From Flavobacteriales bacterium (GTDB taxonomy: Bacteria; Bacteroidota; Bacteroidia; JANQJC01): a DNA stretch of 59,286 nucleotides. Shown in pieces: positions 50,832 through 56,641 of the stretch. Numbering within the stretch: position 1 is the first letter of the stretch; each line of letters opens with the position of its first letter. The notes under the pieces were generated by a model. It had not been told where the DNA came from and searched no databases. It saw only the letters and a program-made list of their open reading frames with translations. The stretch covers positions 1-59,286 of the forward strand of contig JANQJC010000017.1 of assembly GCA_028281825.1 (NCBI GenBank). The letters run 5' to 3'. The position numbers and the translations under genes are program-made.

Positions 50832-52049
50832 TTATTCCTCAGGAACTACACACACGAATAAGTCTTTTTCGCGCTTATTGTAAAGGTTGAAAAGTGAATT
50901 GAACTTCACATTAGCAACGATGTAGTTACTGTGAGGTGATTTGTATTCTTCTTCAATAGAAACTATCTCCAGGTCATCCAGGCTCGACCTGTCATTATAG
51001 CGGACATAAACCTTTAGTTCGAAGTTGGTATCCAGCATTGAGCTTGGGTCATAGTGTCCATTACCATTGCCGTTTCGTATCATTTTCTCCAACTTCTTAT
51101 AGCCATACTTGTAGCCATAGGTTAAAGCTGAAACATCTGATAATACAGCACTGCCAGTAGGGTAGGAGCCTGCACCTTTTCCTGCAAGCGTTTGTCTATC
51201 GCTGTATGCACCTTCTACTTCCACAGCGTTGTATTCATACATGATATTGTACAATGGTTTGCCGCGTTTCACGAATTGAGGCAATACATATACCCTGATT
51301 TTATCTCCGCTCTTATAGCCCTTAGCTACTAACTTGATGCGTGCATCTTTTTGCTTAGCATATAGTATATCGTCAAAGCTGATGTTTTGAATACCCAGAT
51401 TTAAGATTTGGTCTGGTTTAAGGATAATACCAAAGGCGTGGATAGTCAATAGACATAGCTTGTACTTACTGTCAAAGCCTGCAACATCGAGCCATGGGTC
51501 AGACTCAGCGAAGCCATTCTCTTGTGCAAGTCCTAATGCTTCTTCATAGCTTAGGTTATCTACTTCCATCTTGGTGGTGATGTAGTTGGATGAACCATTC
51601 AATATGCCCTCAATATGGTCTAGTAGCTCATTGTCGTAATACTCTTCAAGATTGCGGATGATAGGAATACTGCCACCAGCGGAGCCTTCATAGAGTAGGG
51701 CTACTTTATTCTTCTTTTGAAGTTCGTAGAGTTGTTCGAAGTTTTCAGCCAACATTTTCTTGTTAGCACTCACCACATTAACTCCATTATTCATGGCACG
51801 GCTTACAATTTTGAAGCCCTCATTGGCATCATCTATTAATTCAACAACTACATTTAAGTCTTTCCTGCTTAGGATATCCTCATGGTTGAAGGTGAAGTTG
51901 GACATATCTATCTTGCGCTCCTTATTCTGATCTTTCACGCAAATCTTCTCAATGCTGGCTTCCAACACCTGGCTATGATTTAATACATCATACAAGCCTT
52001 GCCCCACGCAGCCAAATCCAAATAATCCTACTGAAATCTTGTCACTCAT
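50832..52049 (-). CDS. hom: homoserine dehydrogenase
   Basis: 405 residues. NAD(P)-binding VGLFGFGCVGQGLYDVL at the N-terminus; NVVSANKKML, YEGSAGGSIPIIRNLEEYY and GILNGSSNYITTKM; EALGLAQENGFAESDPWLDV and the closing AGKGAGSYPTGSAVLSD. It reduces aspartate semialdehyde to homoserine for methionine and threonine. A C-terminal 70-residue part may be a divergent ACT-like regulatory domain. Being after cysH on the same strand, it links the sulfide made by this operon to its carbon acceptor path. The gap to cysH carries a simple repeat, so it may have a separate transcript. Confidence 0.93.
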   Translation of the reverse strand: MSDKISVGLFGFGCVGQGLYDVLNHSQVLEASIEKICVKDQNKERKIDMSNFTFNHEDILSRKDLNVVVELIDDANEGFKIVSRAMNNGVNVVSANKKMLAENFEQLYELQKKNKVALLYEGSAGGSIPIIRNLEEYYDNELLDHIEGILNGSSNYITTKMEVDNLSYEEALGLAQENGFAESDPWLDVAGFDSKYKLCLLTIHAFGIILKPDQILNLGIQNISFDDILYAKQKDARIKLVAKGYKSGDKIRVYVLPQFVKRGKPLYNIMYEYNAVEVEGAYSDRQTLAGKGAGSYPTGSAVLSDVSALTYGYKYGYKKLEKMIRNGNGNGHYDPSSMLDTNFELKVYVRYNDRSSLDDLEIVSIEEEYKSPHSNYIVANVKFNSLFNLYNKREKDLFVCVVPEE

Positions 52050-52142: not shown

Positions 52143-52790
52143 CTATAAGTGTAAACCACATTCACTTTTTCCTGTACCCTTCCAACGCCCTTCACGGCCT
52201 TTGCCTTTAAAGGTGCATTGTGCACAACCTATAGAGCTGTAACCCATCTTTTGCAAAGGGTGTTCTGGCAATTGGTTGGTTTTGAAATAATCTAGTTTTT
52301 GTTGCTCTGTAAAGTCTATAATTGGATGAAACTTGAGTAAGTCACCACTTTTCTCAAATATCTTTCTTGCCTTCCGCTCTTTGTTTTGATAGGCCATCAA
52401 GCCTGAAACCCATACCTCATAACCGGGTTTTAACTCATCCAAGGGTTCTACCTTATTAATGGAGCAGCACAGGTCAGGGTCCTTAGTCCAGGTTTTGTCT
52501 TTTTTGGTGAACTCATTTTTCCATTGGGCAGGTAGAATGTCTTCTACTTTAATATTGAGAACTTCTTTTAGCCTGTCTCTATATTCTAATGTTTCCTGAA
52601 AATGATAGGTAGTATCAATAAAGTGCACCGTTTGCTCAGGGTTTATTTTGGAGAACATGTGCAAAAGGATAGCGGCAGAAGTACCAAATGAAGAAGTGAA
52701 CAGGACTTTATCAAAATCATTGTAAAGCTCTGCAACCCTTTCCTCTGGCTTCATATCGGTATATTTTGCATTGAGCTTCTCCAAATTCAT
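52143..52790 (-). CDS. cysH: assimilatory adenylyl-sulfate (APS) reductase
   Basis: 215 residues. Sulfate-activation family with the nucleotide loop SSFGTSAA. The Cys pattern is diagnostic: a CC pair near 107 (DLCCSINKVEPL) and CAQC near 190 bind a 4Fe-4S cluster, and the active-site Cys is in the ECGLHL tail near 212. This arrangement marks an APS-type enzyme rather than a cluster-free PAPS enzyme. It reduces APS to sulfite with thioredoxin, feeding the sulfite reductase of the same operon. cysD/cysN, which make APS, are not in the window. Confidence 0.93.
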   Translation of the reverse strand: MNLEKLNAKYTDMKPEERVAELYNDFDKVLFTSSFGTSAAILLHMFSKINPEQTVHFIDTTYHFQETLEYRDRLKEVLNIKVEDILPAQWKNEFTKKDKTWTKDPDLCCSINKVEPLDELKPGYEVWVSGLMAYQNKERKARKIFEKSGDLLKFHPIIDFTEQQKLDYFKTNQLPEHPLQKMGYSSIGCAQCTFKGKGREGRWKGTGKSECGLHL

Positions 52791-52822: not shown

Positions 52823-53410
52823 CTAATTTATCCGTGTTATCAATGATGACGTTAACTCGTTCAACTCCTTTACTTTTTGAGCAAAGTCCCCCTTGATGGT
52901 TTTCCTGAAGTTATTCAGGTTGGCAATCAAGCTATGTGTTTCATCCGGTAGGGCTTCTTCAAGGTATTGCCTAATCCGTTTGGCAAGGGTAGGACTCATG
53001 CCATTGGTGGAGATGCCGATTTTCAAATCACCCTTGGTAACAATGGAGCCTAGGTAGAAATCACACAGTTCAGGTGTGTCAGCAACATTGGTAAGGATAC
53101 CTCTTTTAGTGGTTTCGGTTTTGATTTCTTTGTGGAGCTTATAATTGTCAGTCGCCAGGATAACCACTTGTTTACCTTCTAAATCTTCAAGATGAAAGGG
53201 TCTTTGGAAGGCTTTCACATTGGGGTGGTCAAAAGTGATGTTGAATATCTCGTTAGACACCGTTGTGCCTACTATCTCCACCTTTGCATTGGGGCTGCTT
53301 TTTAGTATTGCGTTTAGCTTTTCCAATGCTACGTTGCCACCACCAACTATCAGGGTACTCAGGTTTTCCAATTTTAGGAATACCGGGAATAATTCGTTTC
53401 TGTTTGCCAT
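52823..53410 (-). CDS. cysG: precorrin-2 dehydrogenase / sirohydrochlorin ferrochelatase (siroheme synthase)
   Basis: 195 residues, matching the N-terminal CysG/Met8p-like part alone, without the methyltransferase half, which is the separate cobA gene upstream. FPVFLKLENLSTLIVGGGNV is the NAD-binding Rossmann start; ATDNYKLHKEI, GILTNVADTPELCDFYLGSI and ISTNGMSPTLAKRIRQYLEE are typical. It oxidises precorrin-2 and inserts Fe2+ to make siroheme, the cofactor of the sulfite reductase. It is third in the operon, 32 bases ahead of cysH. Confidence 0.9.
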   Translation of the reverse strand: MANRNELFPVFLKLENLSTLIVGGGNVALEKLNAILKSSPNAKVEIVGTTVSNEIFNITFDHPNVKAFQRPFHLEDLEGKQVVILATDNYKLHKEIKTETTKRGILTNVADTPELCDFYLGSIVTKGDLKIGISTNGMSPTLAKRIRQYLEEALPDETHSLIANLNNFRKTIKGDFAQKVKELNELTSSLITRIN

Positions 53411-53458: not shown

Positions 53459-53515
53459 CATTCCGAGCAGAGTGAAGAATCTCTAATATCTATGAGACAC
53501 AAAATCTTGTGTCTC
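53459..53515. repeat. short intergenic repeat with hairpin between cobA and cysG
   Basis: The element starts TCATTCCGAGCAGAGTGAAG and contains a perfect 9-bp stem, GAGACACAA (53494-53502) with TTGTGTCTC (53507-53515). The style matches a repeat class frequently seen between Bacteroidota genes. There is no T run, so it is not a clear terminator. The stem ends next to the cobA stop codon. Confidence 0.5.
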
Positions 53516-54294
53516 TACTTTTTACCAACTGCCAATTGATGATTGCCCACTGCTTTTTCGAACTCGGGGTGATATTTCACTACTTCACCGATGACGATAA
53601 TTGCTGGGGCTGCCATTTGGTTTTTCTCTGATGTTTCAACGATTGAATCAATAGTACCCAGAGCGACTTTTTCATTAGGCAGAGAACCATTCTCAATAAT
53701 CGCTACAGGAACATCATTTTTGCCCAAACCTTTGAAAATCTCAGCGATTAAAGGCAACTTTTTCATACCCATCAGGATAACTACGGTTGCGGTGCTTTGA
53801 GCTGCTAATCCCAAATCGTTGCTTAGCTTTTTCTCCTTGGTGGTTCCTGTGATTACCCAAAAACTCTCACTTGAATCCCTGCGAGATACTGGTATCTTTT
53901 GTAATCCAGGTACACCAATAGAACTGCTGATACCAGGGATAACTTCCGTTTCAATTCCAAAAGCTTCGGCGTGTTCAATTTCTTCAGAGCCACGACCAAA
54001 CACAAATGGGTCGCCGCCTTTCAATCTTACTACATGCCCAAAGTTTAAGGCATATTCCACTATCATAGAGTTGATGTCTTCCTGCCTGGTAGAATGCTCA
54101 CCAGCACGTTTACCTACAAAGACCTGTTGTGCATGCTTGGGAACACACTTCAATAGGTCAGGGTGAACTAATGCGTCATACAATACAGCATCAGCTTCGG
54201 CCAGTGCCCATGCACCTTTAATACTTATCAATTCTGGGTCGCCAGGACCAGCGCCTACCAGAGTTAACTTTGGTTTTTTTCTTAAATCTTCCAT
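53515..54294 (-). CDS. cobA: uroporphyrinogen-III C-methyltransferase
   Basis: 259 residues. SAM-dependent methyltransferase: VGAGPGDPELISIKGAWAL, AVLYDALVHPDLL, VRLKGGDPFVFGRGSEE, VIPGISSSIGVPG and VILMGMKKL are the family blocks. It methylates uroporphyrinogen III twice to precorrin-2, first step to siroheme. It is second in the operon, 20 bases after the sulfite reductase gene. It shares the pathway with hemB at 11.0 kb. Confidence 0.95.
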   Translation of the reverse strand: MEDLRKKPKLTLVGAGPGDPELISIKGAWALAEADAVLYDALVHPDLLKCVPKHAQQVFVGKRAGEHSTRQEDINSMIVEYALNFGHVVRLKGGDPFVFGRGSEEIEHAEAFGIETEVIPGISSSIGVPGLQKIPVSRRDSSESFWVITGTTKEKKLSNDLGLAAQSTATVVILMGMKKLPLIAEIFKGLGKNDVPVAIIENGSLPNEKVALGTIDSIVETSEKNQMAAPAIIVIGEVVKYHPEFEKAVGNHQLAVGKK

Positions 54295-54314: not shown

Positions 54315-56426
54315 TTATTGTTGTTTAACCTCTAATTGTTTGTTTCTAAATTCTTGTATCGTCTGTAAAAACTCTTTTGCCTCATTGAAGTAATCTACCG
54401 CGAAAGCTTCAGTCGGCTCAAACTTTTTCATTTGGAATACTATCTCGGGGAAGTTAGCTCTTAGCTTTAATTCACCTGTTTCAACAAATGTTTTTTGGAA
54501 ATCACTGATGATACCATGTTGAGTATTACATGAAACGCCAGCGCCTAATAGCAGTGCTTTGGCGCCATTCACGAAACCAGTGTAAGAGTGGTAAATTGAA
54601 TCAGCGAAAGCTCTGTTGGTCAAGCTATTCTTAGCCCAATCCAGTTTCTCTTCTGCATCATGGAATAGTGTTTGGACCAAGTCAATCACCACTCCCGCAC
54701 ATTCACCTACACCAATCTCTGGCTTGAAGGCCACGTCTTGCCCCCAATCGATATAATCATCAGCTACCAGTGTTTCTGTATCAGCCAGTGGCTTGAACAT
54801 TTGGTAGAAATAGTCTTTACCCTGACGCAAGTAGTAATCGTTAAAATACTCGCCCTCATTGGCATTGGCATCGTAATCATCCAGTGCTGTGCGCAACAAT
54901 TGTGGGGCGCGCTTGCTGGGGATTTTTATCACTTTATCTGCAACGGTGCCTTGTCCATCACCTAAAACGCCACCACCTAAAAGCACCTGAACGGCTGGCA
55001 GCACCTGACCAGAATTTCTAATAGAACTGCCATGAAAACCAATGTTGGCAATGCCATGCTGGCCGCAAGAGTTCATACAACCGCTAATTTTTATCTTCAT
55101 TTGGTTGTTGTGGATAAGGTCTGGATACTCGTCCGTGATAACTCTTTCCAACTCTTTAGCAGTTGATGTGCTATTGCTGATGCCCAAATTACACGTATCG
55201 GTTCCTGGGCATGCAGTAATATCAGCAATGCTATCAAAGCCGGGGAGCGATAGACCTATTTTAGTCAAAGCTAAGTATAGGTGAGGTAGAGCCTCTTTCC
55301 TTACGTACTTTAATAAGTAGCCTTGATTAACTGTGATACGGATATCGTCGGCAGCATATTCTTTAGCTACTGCTGCAAACTCACGGGCTTTATCAGAAGT
55401 TAAATTACCCAATACTACACGAACATAAACACCGTAAAAGCCTTTTTGCTTCTGCTCGAAAACGTTGGTCTTTTGCCAATCATCATAGTGCTTTTGGTTG
55501 GGGATAACAGCTTCGCCGTAATCCTTTTCAGGAAGTGGCTCGGGTTGCTTTATTGAATCCCTGTTCACTTTAAAGGTCTTGTTCTTTAGGGCAGGCTTTT
55601 CTTCCTCTACCATTTCCAGTACCTTTTCCATGCCTAGTTCCTGGAACAGGTATTTAAAACGGGCCTTGTTTCTGCGGTTTCTTTCACCAAAGCGGTCAAA
55701 TATTCTCAAAACAGCCTCTGTGAAAGGCATCATTTGGTCTTCTTCAAGAAACTCATAGGCGGTTTCAGCAAGAAAAGGCTGAGCGCCCAGGCCACCGCCT
55801 ACCATTACTTTAAAGCCGCGTATTTCTTTATCACCCTGGTACTTCACTTTAGGAATGAAACCAATGTCGTGTATAAAAGTGAAGGCTGAATCTTTCTCAC
55901 TGCTGGCAAATGCAATCTTGAACTTGCGGCCCATCTCCTGGCAAATTGGGTTGCGTAGGAAGTAGCGGAACATCTCGTAAGCATAAGGTGAAACATCAAA
56001 GGGCTCTTCAGGGTCAATGCCAGCTTTGTCAGAAGCAGTGATATTCCTCACGGTATTACCGCAAGCCTCGCGAAGGGTGATTTCTGACTGCTCCAGTTTG
56101 TGCCATAATTCAGGGGTTCTGTCCAAGCTCACATAATGGATTTGGATGTCCTGACGGGTAGTAGCATGAAGCGTACTACTGGCGTATTCGTCGCTCAAGT
56201 CGGCAATTTTGACCAACTGGTGGGCAGTCATTCTACCAAATGGAATCTTGATACGAACCATTTGTACGCCTTGCTGGCGCTGACCGTATACACCCCTTGC
56301 CAGTCGCAGGCTACGGAACTTTTCTTCGTCTATCTTACCGTCATGAAAAAGCTTGATTTTCTTCTCCAGGTCGATGATGTCCTGTTCCACTACGGGGTTT
56401 TCTAACTCTGTTCTAAAACTTTGCAT
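54315..56426 (-). CDS. ferredoxin-type assimilatory sulfite reductase
   Basis: 703 residues in two ferredoxin-like/siroheme repeats. The first has FGRMTAHQLVKIADLSDEYA and LREACGNTVRNITA. The cluster-siroheme Cys residues are CPGTDTCNLG near 407 and CMNSCGQHGIANIGF near 450 (Cys-x5-Cys and Cys-x3-Cys). It reduces sulfite to sulfide with six electrons; a nitrite role is possible for this family, but the company of cobA, cysG and cysH favours sulfite. It is first of the operon. A Cys-rich leader peptide, terminator and antiterminator candidate lie upstream. Confidence 0.92.
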   Translation of the reverse strand: MQSFRTELENPVVEQDIIDLEKKIKLFHDGKIDEEKFRSLRLARGVYGQRQQGVQMVRIKIPFGRMTAHQLVKIADLSDEYASSTLHATTRQDIQIHYVSLDRTPELWHKLEQSEITLREACGNTVRNITASDKAGIDPEEPFDVSPYAYEMFRYFLRNPICQEMGRKFKIAFASSEKDSAFTFIHDIGFIPKVKYQGDKEIRGFKVMVGGGLGAQPFLAETAYEFLEEDQMMPFTEAVLRIFDRFGERNRRNKARFKYLFQELGMEKVLEMVEEEKPALKNKTFKVNRDSIKQPEPLPEKDYGEAVIPNQKHYDDWQKTNVFEQKQKGFYGVYVRVVLGNLTSDKAREFAAVAKEYAADDIRITVNQGYLLKYVRKEALPHLYLALTKIGLSLPGFDSIADITACPGTDTCNLGISNSTSTAKELERVITDEYPDLIHNNQMKIKISGCMNSCGQHGIANIGFHGSSIRNSGQVLPAVQVLLGGGVLGDGQGTVADKVIKIPSKRAPQLLRTALDDYDANANEGEYFNDYYLRQGKDYFYQMFKPLADTETLVADDYIDWGQDVAFKPEIGVGECAGVVIDLVQTLFHDAEEKLDWAKNSLTNRAFADSIYHSYTGFVNGAKALLLGAGVSCNTQHGIISDFQKTFVETGELKLRANFPEIVFQMKKFEPTEAFAVDYFNEAKEFLQTIQEFRNKQLEVKQQ

Positions 56427-56449: not shown

Positions 56450-56482
56450 AAAAAAGGCCTTCCAGTTTTCCGAAAGGCCTTT
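56450..56482 (-). terminator. attenuator terminator ahead of the sulfite reductase gene
   Basis: Reading the minus strand, AAAGGCCTT (56482-56474) pairs perfectly with AAGGCCTTT (56461-56453) around a 12-base loop, followed by a T run reaching 56450. It ends 23 bases before the sulfite reductase ATG, so it would stop transcription ahead of the structural genes. The 5' arm overlaps the segment that can pair with bases just after the leader peptide stop (56525-56518). Confidence 0.82.
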
Positions 56483-56525
56483 ATCAATATTCTTTGATAA
56501 ATAAATTCCTATGTGAGGGCCTTTC
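56472..56525 (-). promoter_or_regulatory. candidate antiterminator stem
   Basis: On the minus strand GAAAGGCC (56525-56518) is exactly complementary to GGCCTTTC (56479-56472), which includes most of the 5' arm of the terminator. The 38-base loop between them holds its own perfect hairpin, TTTATCAA with TTGATAAA, directly beside the 3' pairing segment. The two structures (terminator and antiterminator) are mutually exclusive. This is read from the sequence; the switching is inferred. Confidence 0.7.
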
Positions 56526-56527
56526 AA

Positions 56528-56602
56528 CTATAAAGCACAGCAAGTACAGCACATTGTACAACATGTAGCTTTAATTCCGTTGAAAGTCCAGTTTGTTTTC
56601 AT
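56528..56602 (-). CDS. Cys-rich leader peptide of the sulfur operon, 24 aa
   Basis: Translated from the ATG at 56602 to the TAG at 56530-56528: MKTNWTFNGIKATC, then CTMCCTCCAL. Six Cys fall in the last 11 residues (positions 14, 15, 18, 19, 21, 22; bases 56563-56537). The same frame is open to 56710, but the promoter at 56641-56611 lies inside that extension, so the short start is preferred. The stop codon is two bases before the 5' antiterminator strand. Ribosome position at Cys codons would therefore control the folding. Analogous to the poly-Cys leader peptides of mycobacteria and to the trp/his leaders of enterobacteria; expected to be regulatory rather than functional as protein. Confidence 0.78.
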   Translation of the reverse strand: MKTNWTFNGIKATCCTMCCTCCAL

Positions 56603-56610
56603 TTGAGCTG

Positions 56611-56641
56611 CAAATATAGGGTAGGATTTAATACAAAGCAA
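56611..56641 (-). promoter_or_regulatory. promoter of the Cys leader peptide and sulfur operon
   Basis: On the minus strand TTG (56641-56639), a 20-base spacer, and TATATTTG (56618-56611) match the Bacteroidota TTG / TAnnTTTG consensus exactly. Only 8 bases separate the -7 element from the leader ATG, so the mRNA would start at or a few bases from the start codon. Confidence 0.75.

Follow-up and report, generated by a model that had tools for sequence, protein, structure and literature searches.

The window analysed here, the whole 59,286-nt stretch, carries on its minus strand a set of genes with cysteine-making functions. The first encodes a 703-residue protein of the assimilatory sulfite/nitrite reductase type (54315-56426), referred to below as the sulfite reductase, and is followed by genes for a uroporphyrinogen-III C-methyltransferase (siroheme; 53515-54294), a member of the CysG N-terminal (siroheme synthase) family (52823-53410) and the phosphoadenylyl/adenylyl-sulfate reductase CysH (52143-52790). 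A homoserine dehydrogenase gene of the methionine branch (50832-52049) lies on the same strand after a gap of about 90 nt and is a probable member of the operon. The C-terminal part of the sulfite reductase gave a match to the HEPN domain (residues 585-695; 24.9 bits, cut-off 22), which is an unusual fusion.

Upstream of these genes, also on the minus strand, a short open reading frame is flanked by a promoter of the Bacteroidota type and an intrinsic terminator. The promoter is of the sigma-A type, with a -33-like element, (A)TTG (TTG at 56639-56641, a match to three of the four bases of the Bacteroidota TTTG), separated by a 20-nt spacer from the -7 box TATATTTG (56611-56618; consensus TAnnTTTG). 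Eight nucleotides past this box, the ATG at 56602 opens a leader frame of 24 codons, MKTNWTFNGIKATCCTMCCTCCAL (56528-56602 with its stop codon), which has counterparts in relatives. Its six Cys codons all fall within the last 11 codons (codons 14, 15, 18, 19, 21 and 22, with a Met codon at position 17; 56537-56563), and this cluster, kept in relatives, is the putative sensing or stalling region. The stop codon TAG (56530-56528) is followed by TT and then by GAAAGGCC (56525-56518), which is included in region 2, the antiterminator strand GTTGAAAGGCC (56518-56528). Region 1, ACTTTCAAC (56579-56587), lies in codons 6-8 and is the partner of region 2 in a protector helix. An AU-rich helper hairpin of 7 bp (56481-56500), enclosed by the antiterminator helix, precedes the intrinsic terminator hairpin, which is made of region 3 (GGCCTTTC) and region 4 (56455-56480; -18.2 kcal/mol) and ends in a T-run (56450-56455); the sulfite reductase ATG at 56426 is found downstream of this T-run. 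All positions given in an earlier note on this DNA held on the minus strand. Comparison with Rfam 15, including the S-box, the T-box and known leaders, gave no match in the window at the gathering score; the sub-threshold matches were judged to be due to chance, and a known RNA family was rejected.

According to PMC9723704, positions -12 to -5 relative to mapped transcription starts are occupied by the sigma-A box TAnnTTTG in Flavobacterium psychrophilum, where only 5.5% of mRNAs with a mapped start are leaderless. On this basis, the 8-nt distance from box to ATG predicts a transcription start at about 56606 and a 5' UTR of 4 nt. The predicted start moves from 56602 to about 56606, and the leader that the earlier note had called leaderless is better described as near-leaderless in the window. 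The term does fit other species by position: of 57 attenuator loci, 34 have a -7 box 4-14 nt ahead of the leader's start codon, and in 17 the distance is exactly 4 nt, which places the ATG (once GTG) at the predicted +1. The second elements of tandem pairs are mostly without such a box. Ribosomes of Bacteroidota are reported to make hardly any use of Shine-Dalgarno pairing (PMC6847099, PMC9976891).

A search upstream of sulfite reductase genes in relatives, which the earlier note had put forward as a check, was performed on 156 orthologous loci (17 from 60 relatives, about 60 from 395 genomes of the phylum and 80 named loci). The rule asked for an ATG-initiated frame no longer than 50 codons that has three or more Cys in eight codons and is followed by an intrinsic terminator, within 600 nt upstream. 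With a survey anchored on this one gene family and thresholds chosen after a first look, 34 loci satisfied the rule in sense and none in antisense of the same 600-nt regions. At four or more Cys, the counts were 17 in sense and 0 in antisense, while the next residue by the same test, Leu, gave 8 versus 2. A looser rule that included two-Cys elements yielded 55 of the 156 loci in sense and again none in antisense. In addition, a strict search of 1.14 Mb of related loci on both strands returned 20 matches, of which 19 were in sense and upstream of the sulfite reductase operon. The background over the same 1.14 Mb (both strands, 2.3 Mb) amounted to about 12 chance-like matches, so that well under one would be expected upstream of the sulfite reductase genes, versus the 34 observed. 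The sense and antisense counts together with this background led us to reject a chance open reading frame.

The element was found in named genomes that include Pedobacter, Mucilaginibacter, Parapedobacter, Chitinophaga, a Fulvivirgaceae strain and a Cyclobacteriaceae bacterium MAG; among the 156 sulfite reductase loci, it was absent from Flavobacteriaceae, most Sphingobacterium and others. Five positives lay further upstream because another gene heads the operon, and the leader stays at the operon front even though other genes lead it: two tandem elements precede cysH-cysD-cysN in L090, and leaders precede an aldo-keto reductase gene in L121 and L144 and a peroxiredoxin-like gene in L158. Two complete attenuators in tandem were present in seven loci (L002, L003, L008, L010, L013, L016 and L090). 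Cys was encoded by TGT 102 times and by TGC 74 times; as both codons are used, it is the amino acid and not the base that is kept. At three further loci (L136, about 150 nt before the sulfite reductase gene, L111 and L089), promoter and terminator were retained with the Cys codons or the start codon lost, and these are apparently decayed attenuators.

The earlier note had pointed to the terminator 5' arm as the competitor for the strand that follows the stop codon. To assess this pairing, the best duplex between the stretch separating the Cys codons from the terminator and the element's own terminator 5' arm was compared with those formed with the arms of all other elements. As the antiterminator register shifts between clades, matched and swapped duplex energies were used instead of a column-based covariation count. 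Among 47 non-redundant elements (32 in a first version), the pairing of regions 2 and 3 averaged -10.8 kcal/mol with the own arm versus -8.1 kcal/mol with swapped arms, and none of 200,000 permutations equalled the own-arm value (p = 5e-6; the permutation p-values are optimistic because the relatives share ancestry, and the swapped comparison controls for composition). The pairing sequences are GAAAGGCC/GGCCTTTC here, GAGGGGTATT/AATGCTTCTC in Pedobacter and GGCTGTAA/TTCAGCC in Mucilaginibacter; that they differ between clades points to repeated compensation and not to a single inherited helix. Predicted pairing was weak in some elements (L143, L098 and L158).

Folding the leader without a ribosome revealed a helix, overlooked in the earlier note, between region 1 (ACTTTCAAC) and GTTGAAAGG, which spans the stop codon; it forms alongside the terminator. 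The 1:2 pairing was also stronger when matched than when swapped (-8.9 versus -7.2 kcal/mol, p = 4e-5, 37 elements), is weak in about a third of the elements, and in the window ranks first in its column at -12.4 kcal/mol. The predicted layout is thus that of the classical 1-2-3-4 trp attenuators, with termination as the default of the untranslated leader. When a ribosome was placed on any of the Cys codons, with RNA polymerase just past the terminator 5' arm, the mean pair probability of the antiterminator was 0.99; when it was placed at the stop codon, region 2 was covered and the antiterminator could not form in the fold. Since folding energies alone favour the terminator once its 3' arm exists, the switch would have to operate kinetically, like that of other attenuators.

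The distance from the end of the Cys cluster to the first paired base has a median of 13 nt (interquartile range 10-16, sd 5.5), while the distance measured from the stop codon varies with an sd of 14.4 nt, and many relatives have a frame that continues across the antiterminator strand. For a ribosome paused at the final Cys codon, the leading edge would be expected roughly 11-13 nt ahead. The fixed distance runs from the Cys cluster whatever the position of the stop, which argues that the stop codon is not the ruler. The earlier note had made arrival at the stop codon the release point, and this emphasis arose because stop and region 2 adjoin in the window; the adjacency is real, and the difference in spread (14.4 versus 5.5 nt) indicates that release need not occur there. 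So read, the deciding point would be whether region 2 is left free, by a ribosome held at Cys, or covered, by one that has travelled further; release at the stop would be one way among others.

We also noted an excess of Met codons. Met accounts for 26% of the non-Cys residues around the Cys cluster versus 5.5% elsewhere in the same frames (p ~3e-19), and lies within a few residues of a Cys in 45 of 47 elements. Near the cluster, ATG occurs 85 times in frame, its counts in the two remaining frames of that stretch being 5 and 7, and the single-base neighbours of ATG are rare there; this bias indicates selection on the codon and not on composition. The leader may therefore read both sulfur amino acids, Cys and Met. 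Dual reading is the simplest view, the alternatives being internal restart sites or metal binding, and a connection to methionine would fit the presence of a homoserine dehydrogenase gene in the window operon.

The above findings are most consistent with a ribosome-mediated transcription attenuator of the trp type in which charged tRNA-Cys, and possibly tRNA-Met, is sensed, an interpretation drawn from sequence comparison to which we assign a probability of about 85%. Attenuation of transcription at Cys codons, as the earlier note had proposed, is backed by every component being kept in relatives and by the co-varying strands, and the element very probably serves to switch on the sulfate-to-cysteine genes when cysteine is short. 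From the observed anatomy, conservation, co-variation and spacing, we infer ribosome stalling, coupling to transcription and a response to cysteine as follows. RNA polymerase would start a few bases before the leader ATG, and a ribosome would load at or near the 5' end with no need for a Shine-Dalgarno sequence. With plentiful Cys-tRNA, this ribosome would pass the Cys codons and cover region 2 (GTTGAAAGGCC), allowing regions 3 and 4 to form the terminator and stop transcription. When cysteine is short, it would wait at codons 14-22 with its leading edge just before region 2, which would then be free to pair with region 3 (GGCCTTTC) and block the terminator, and the sulfite reductase-siroheme-CysH operon would be transcribed. 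In a leader carrying no ribosome, region 1 (codons 6-8) would pair with region 2, making termination the default. Transcription-translation coupling in Bacteroidota was not found to be established in the literature searched.

In this model control would be exerted at the terminator, which distinguishes it from a polycysteine translational attenuator of the mycobacterial type, in which the stalled ribosome would open a downstream ribosome-binding site and termination would not be prevented. The mycobacterial design is alike in having a leaderless poly-Cys frame ahead of Cys genes, as presented in PMC13236596, and at the Pontibacter and Botryobacter loci with hexa-Cys frames (see below) a terminator went undetected in three of four and was weak in the fourth (L098). 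Control of translation is nonetheless improbable, as an intrinsic terminator is present in the window and in at least 55 loci, region 2 co-varies with the terminator arm, the sulfite reductase start at 56426 lies past the T-run, and Bacteroidota ribosomes, by the reports cited above (PMC6847099, PMC9976891), make hardly any use of Shine-Dalgarno pairing. It is slightly less probable still that the peptide itself is the sensor or the product, a Cys/Met-rich chain that would bind Cu(I) or another soft metal, or react to oxidants, and either stall the ribosome or act in trans. The combination of Cys with Met (CCMC, MMCC) suits the binding of soft metals, and Cu-responsive Cys-rich leader peptides occur in other bacteria. 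Against such a role, Cys and Met follow no conserved order, certain copies contain CC or CxC alone and the remaining peptide is free to vary; moreover, the regulated genes make cysteine and are not metal transporters, and the 20 cysK loci and most of the cysD loci surveyed had no leader of this kind.

The least probable explanation, which we regard as very unlikely, is that the short frame is incidental and the hairpin an ordinary terminator or an operator-linked leader under a protein such as an Rrf2-family regulator. Open reading frames with several Cys do arise by chance, and an Rrf2-like gene precedes the operon in 30 of the 156 loci; but the Cys frame was found both with and without this gene, no Rrf2 gene was detected within 1.5 kb upstream in the window genome, and neither 55 sense versus 0 antisense loci nor the co-variation is expected by chance. 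The Rrf2-family-like gene is seen, for example, in L014, L020, L107 and L159, with or without an attenuator. As the two co-occur, mutual exclusion of regulator and attenuator was rejected, and their combination suggests dual control in Sphingobacteriaceae.

Cys leaders were also looked for at other sites. No Cys leader was found at 20 cysK loci (10 genomes). At cysD, one of 30 loci (L241) had a leader, MNAIPTVNNKKMYSNMCCCMCIPL, with a terminator about 700 nt upstream, which indicates that the element also occurs away from sulfite reductase. In the window's own genome, the CC..CC pattern gave 31 matches, and among the eight loci examined the combination of frame and terminator occurred only at the window site; a leaderless-CC pattern run over 295 genomes was too loose, the frame not being enforced. 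In Pontibacter and Botryobacter, a SAM-I riboswitch (RF00162, 60-68 bits; L096 4425-4526, L098 4373-4474, L099 4522-4627 and L118 4390-4492) lies directly upstream of a hexa-Cys short frame, for example MNKTSGIFQLTSLVPPSNLVASPLPVMCCCCCCSC, 250-400 nt before the sulfite reductase gene, and L096, L098 and L118 have an additional Cys-ending frame closer to it. Stacked control by SAM plus Cys is possible at these loci. Elsewhere in the phylum, two genomes from a single genus (L075 and L077) share a conserved frame with AMLQVAGRCCCMG at its end; the frame lies about 410-424 nt before a distant NirA-like gene, and no terminator was detected.

If the element works as proposed, classical attenuation operates in Bacteroidota and the pioneer ribosome follows RNA polymerase closely enough for it in a group whose ribosomes disregard Shine-Dalgarno sequences. 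It would provide a ready reporter for coupling in this phylum, give a real job to leaderless starts, which make up a few percent of its mRNAs, and explain the control of sulfate assimilation in many species. The mix of Cys and Met codons and the pairing with a SAM riboswitch point to integrated sensing of sulfur amino acids. A broader proposal, to which we give somewhat less than even odds, is that the attenuators form an ancient family, leaderless and often in tandem, that spans the Bacteroidota. Its members would read the two sulfur amino acids through Met codons interleaved among Cys codons, would be stacked under a SAM riboswitch in Hymenobacteraceae, and would reveal RNA polymerase-ribosome coupling close enough for classical attenuation without Shine-Dalgarno initiation.

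For amino acid operons of Bacteroidota, signs of leader-peptide attenuation have been reported in Flavobacterium psychrophilum (PMC9723704), and candidate sORF leaders have been listed in Bacteroides thetaiotaomicron (PMC7366714); the main texts of these papers name no cysteine leader and include no comparative test. The earlier note knew of poly-Cys leaders in mycobacteria and of none in Bacteroidota, and our literature search agrees, having found no cysteine attenuator for sulfate assimilation in this phylum; the survey of Lopatovskaya et al. 2010, outside that search, may touch the phylum. With the trp and his attenuators of Proteobacteria and Actinobacteria, the element shares a short leader containing codons for the pathway product, the 1:2, 2:3 and 3:4 pairings, a terminator and a biosynthetic operon. 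It differs from them in that its start is leaderless or nearly so and its phylum makes no use of Shine-Dalgarno sequences, in its Cys and Met codons, in often occurring as two in tandem and in the variable position of its stop codon. In mycobacteria, leaderless short ORFs of the polycysteine type are reportedly the subject of Canestrari et al. 2020 (Mol Microbiol 114:93). Such leaders ahead of cys operons were first predicted without conserved terminator hairpins (PMC1262725) and were later described as cysteine-responsive translation attenuators (Canestrari et al. 2020, as related in PMC13236596). A poly-Cys frame ahead of a cysteine operon is common to both systems, and a leaderless start may be so as well, with a 4-nt 5' UTR predicted here and a start at the predicted +1 in 17 of 57 relatives; the mycobacterial leaders are described as having no conserved terminator and as controlling translation, whereas here a strong terminator and a co-varying antiterminator are found, in a different phylum. 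The uORFC-8-2 motif of Rhodobacterales cysS, a predicted Cys-codon attenuator with a terminator for which readthrough controlled by Cys-tRNA has been proposed (PMC8632094), likewise combines Cys codons in a short frame with an intrinsic terminator. That motif has two tandem Cys codons, occurs in one alphaproteobacterial order and lies upstream of cysS, whereas the element described here belongs to sulfate assimilation and sulfite reductase in Bacteroidota; in addition, the first stem of uORFC-8-2 contains the Cys codons, while here region 1 precedes them.
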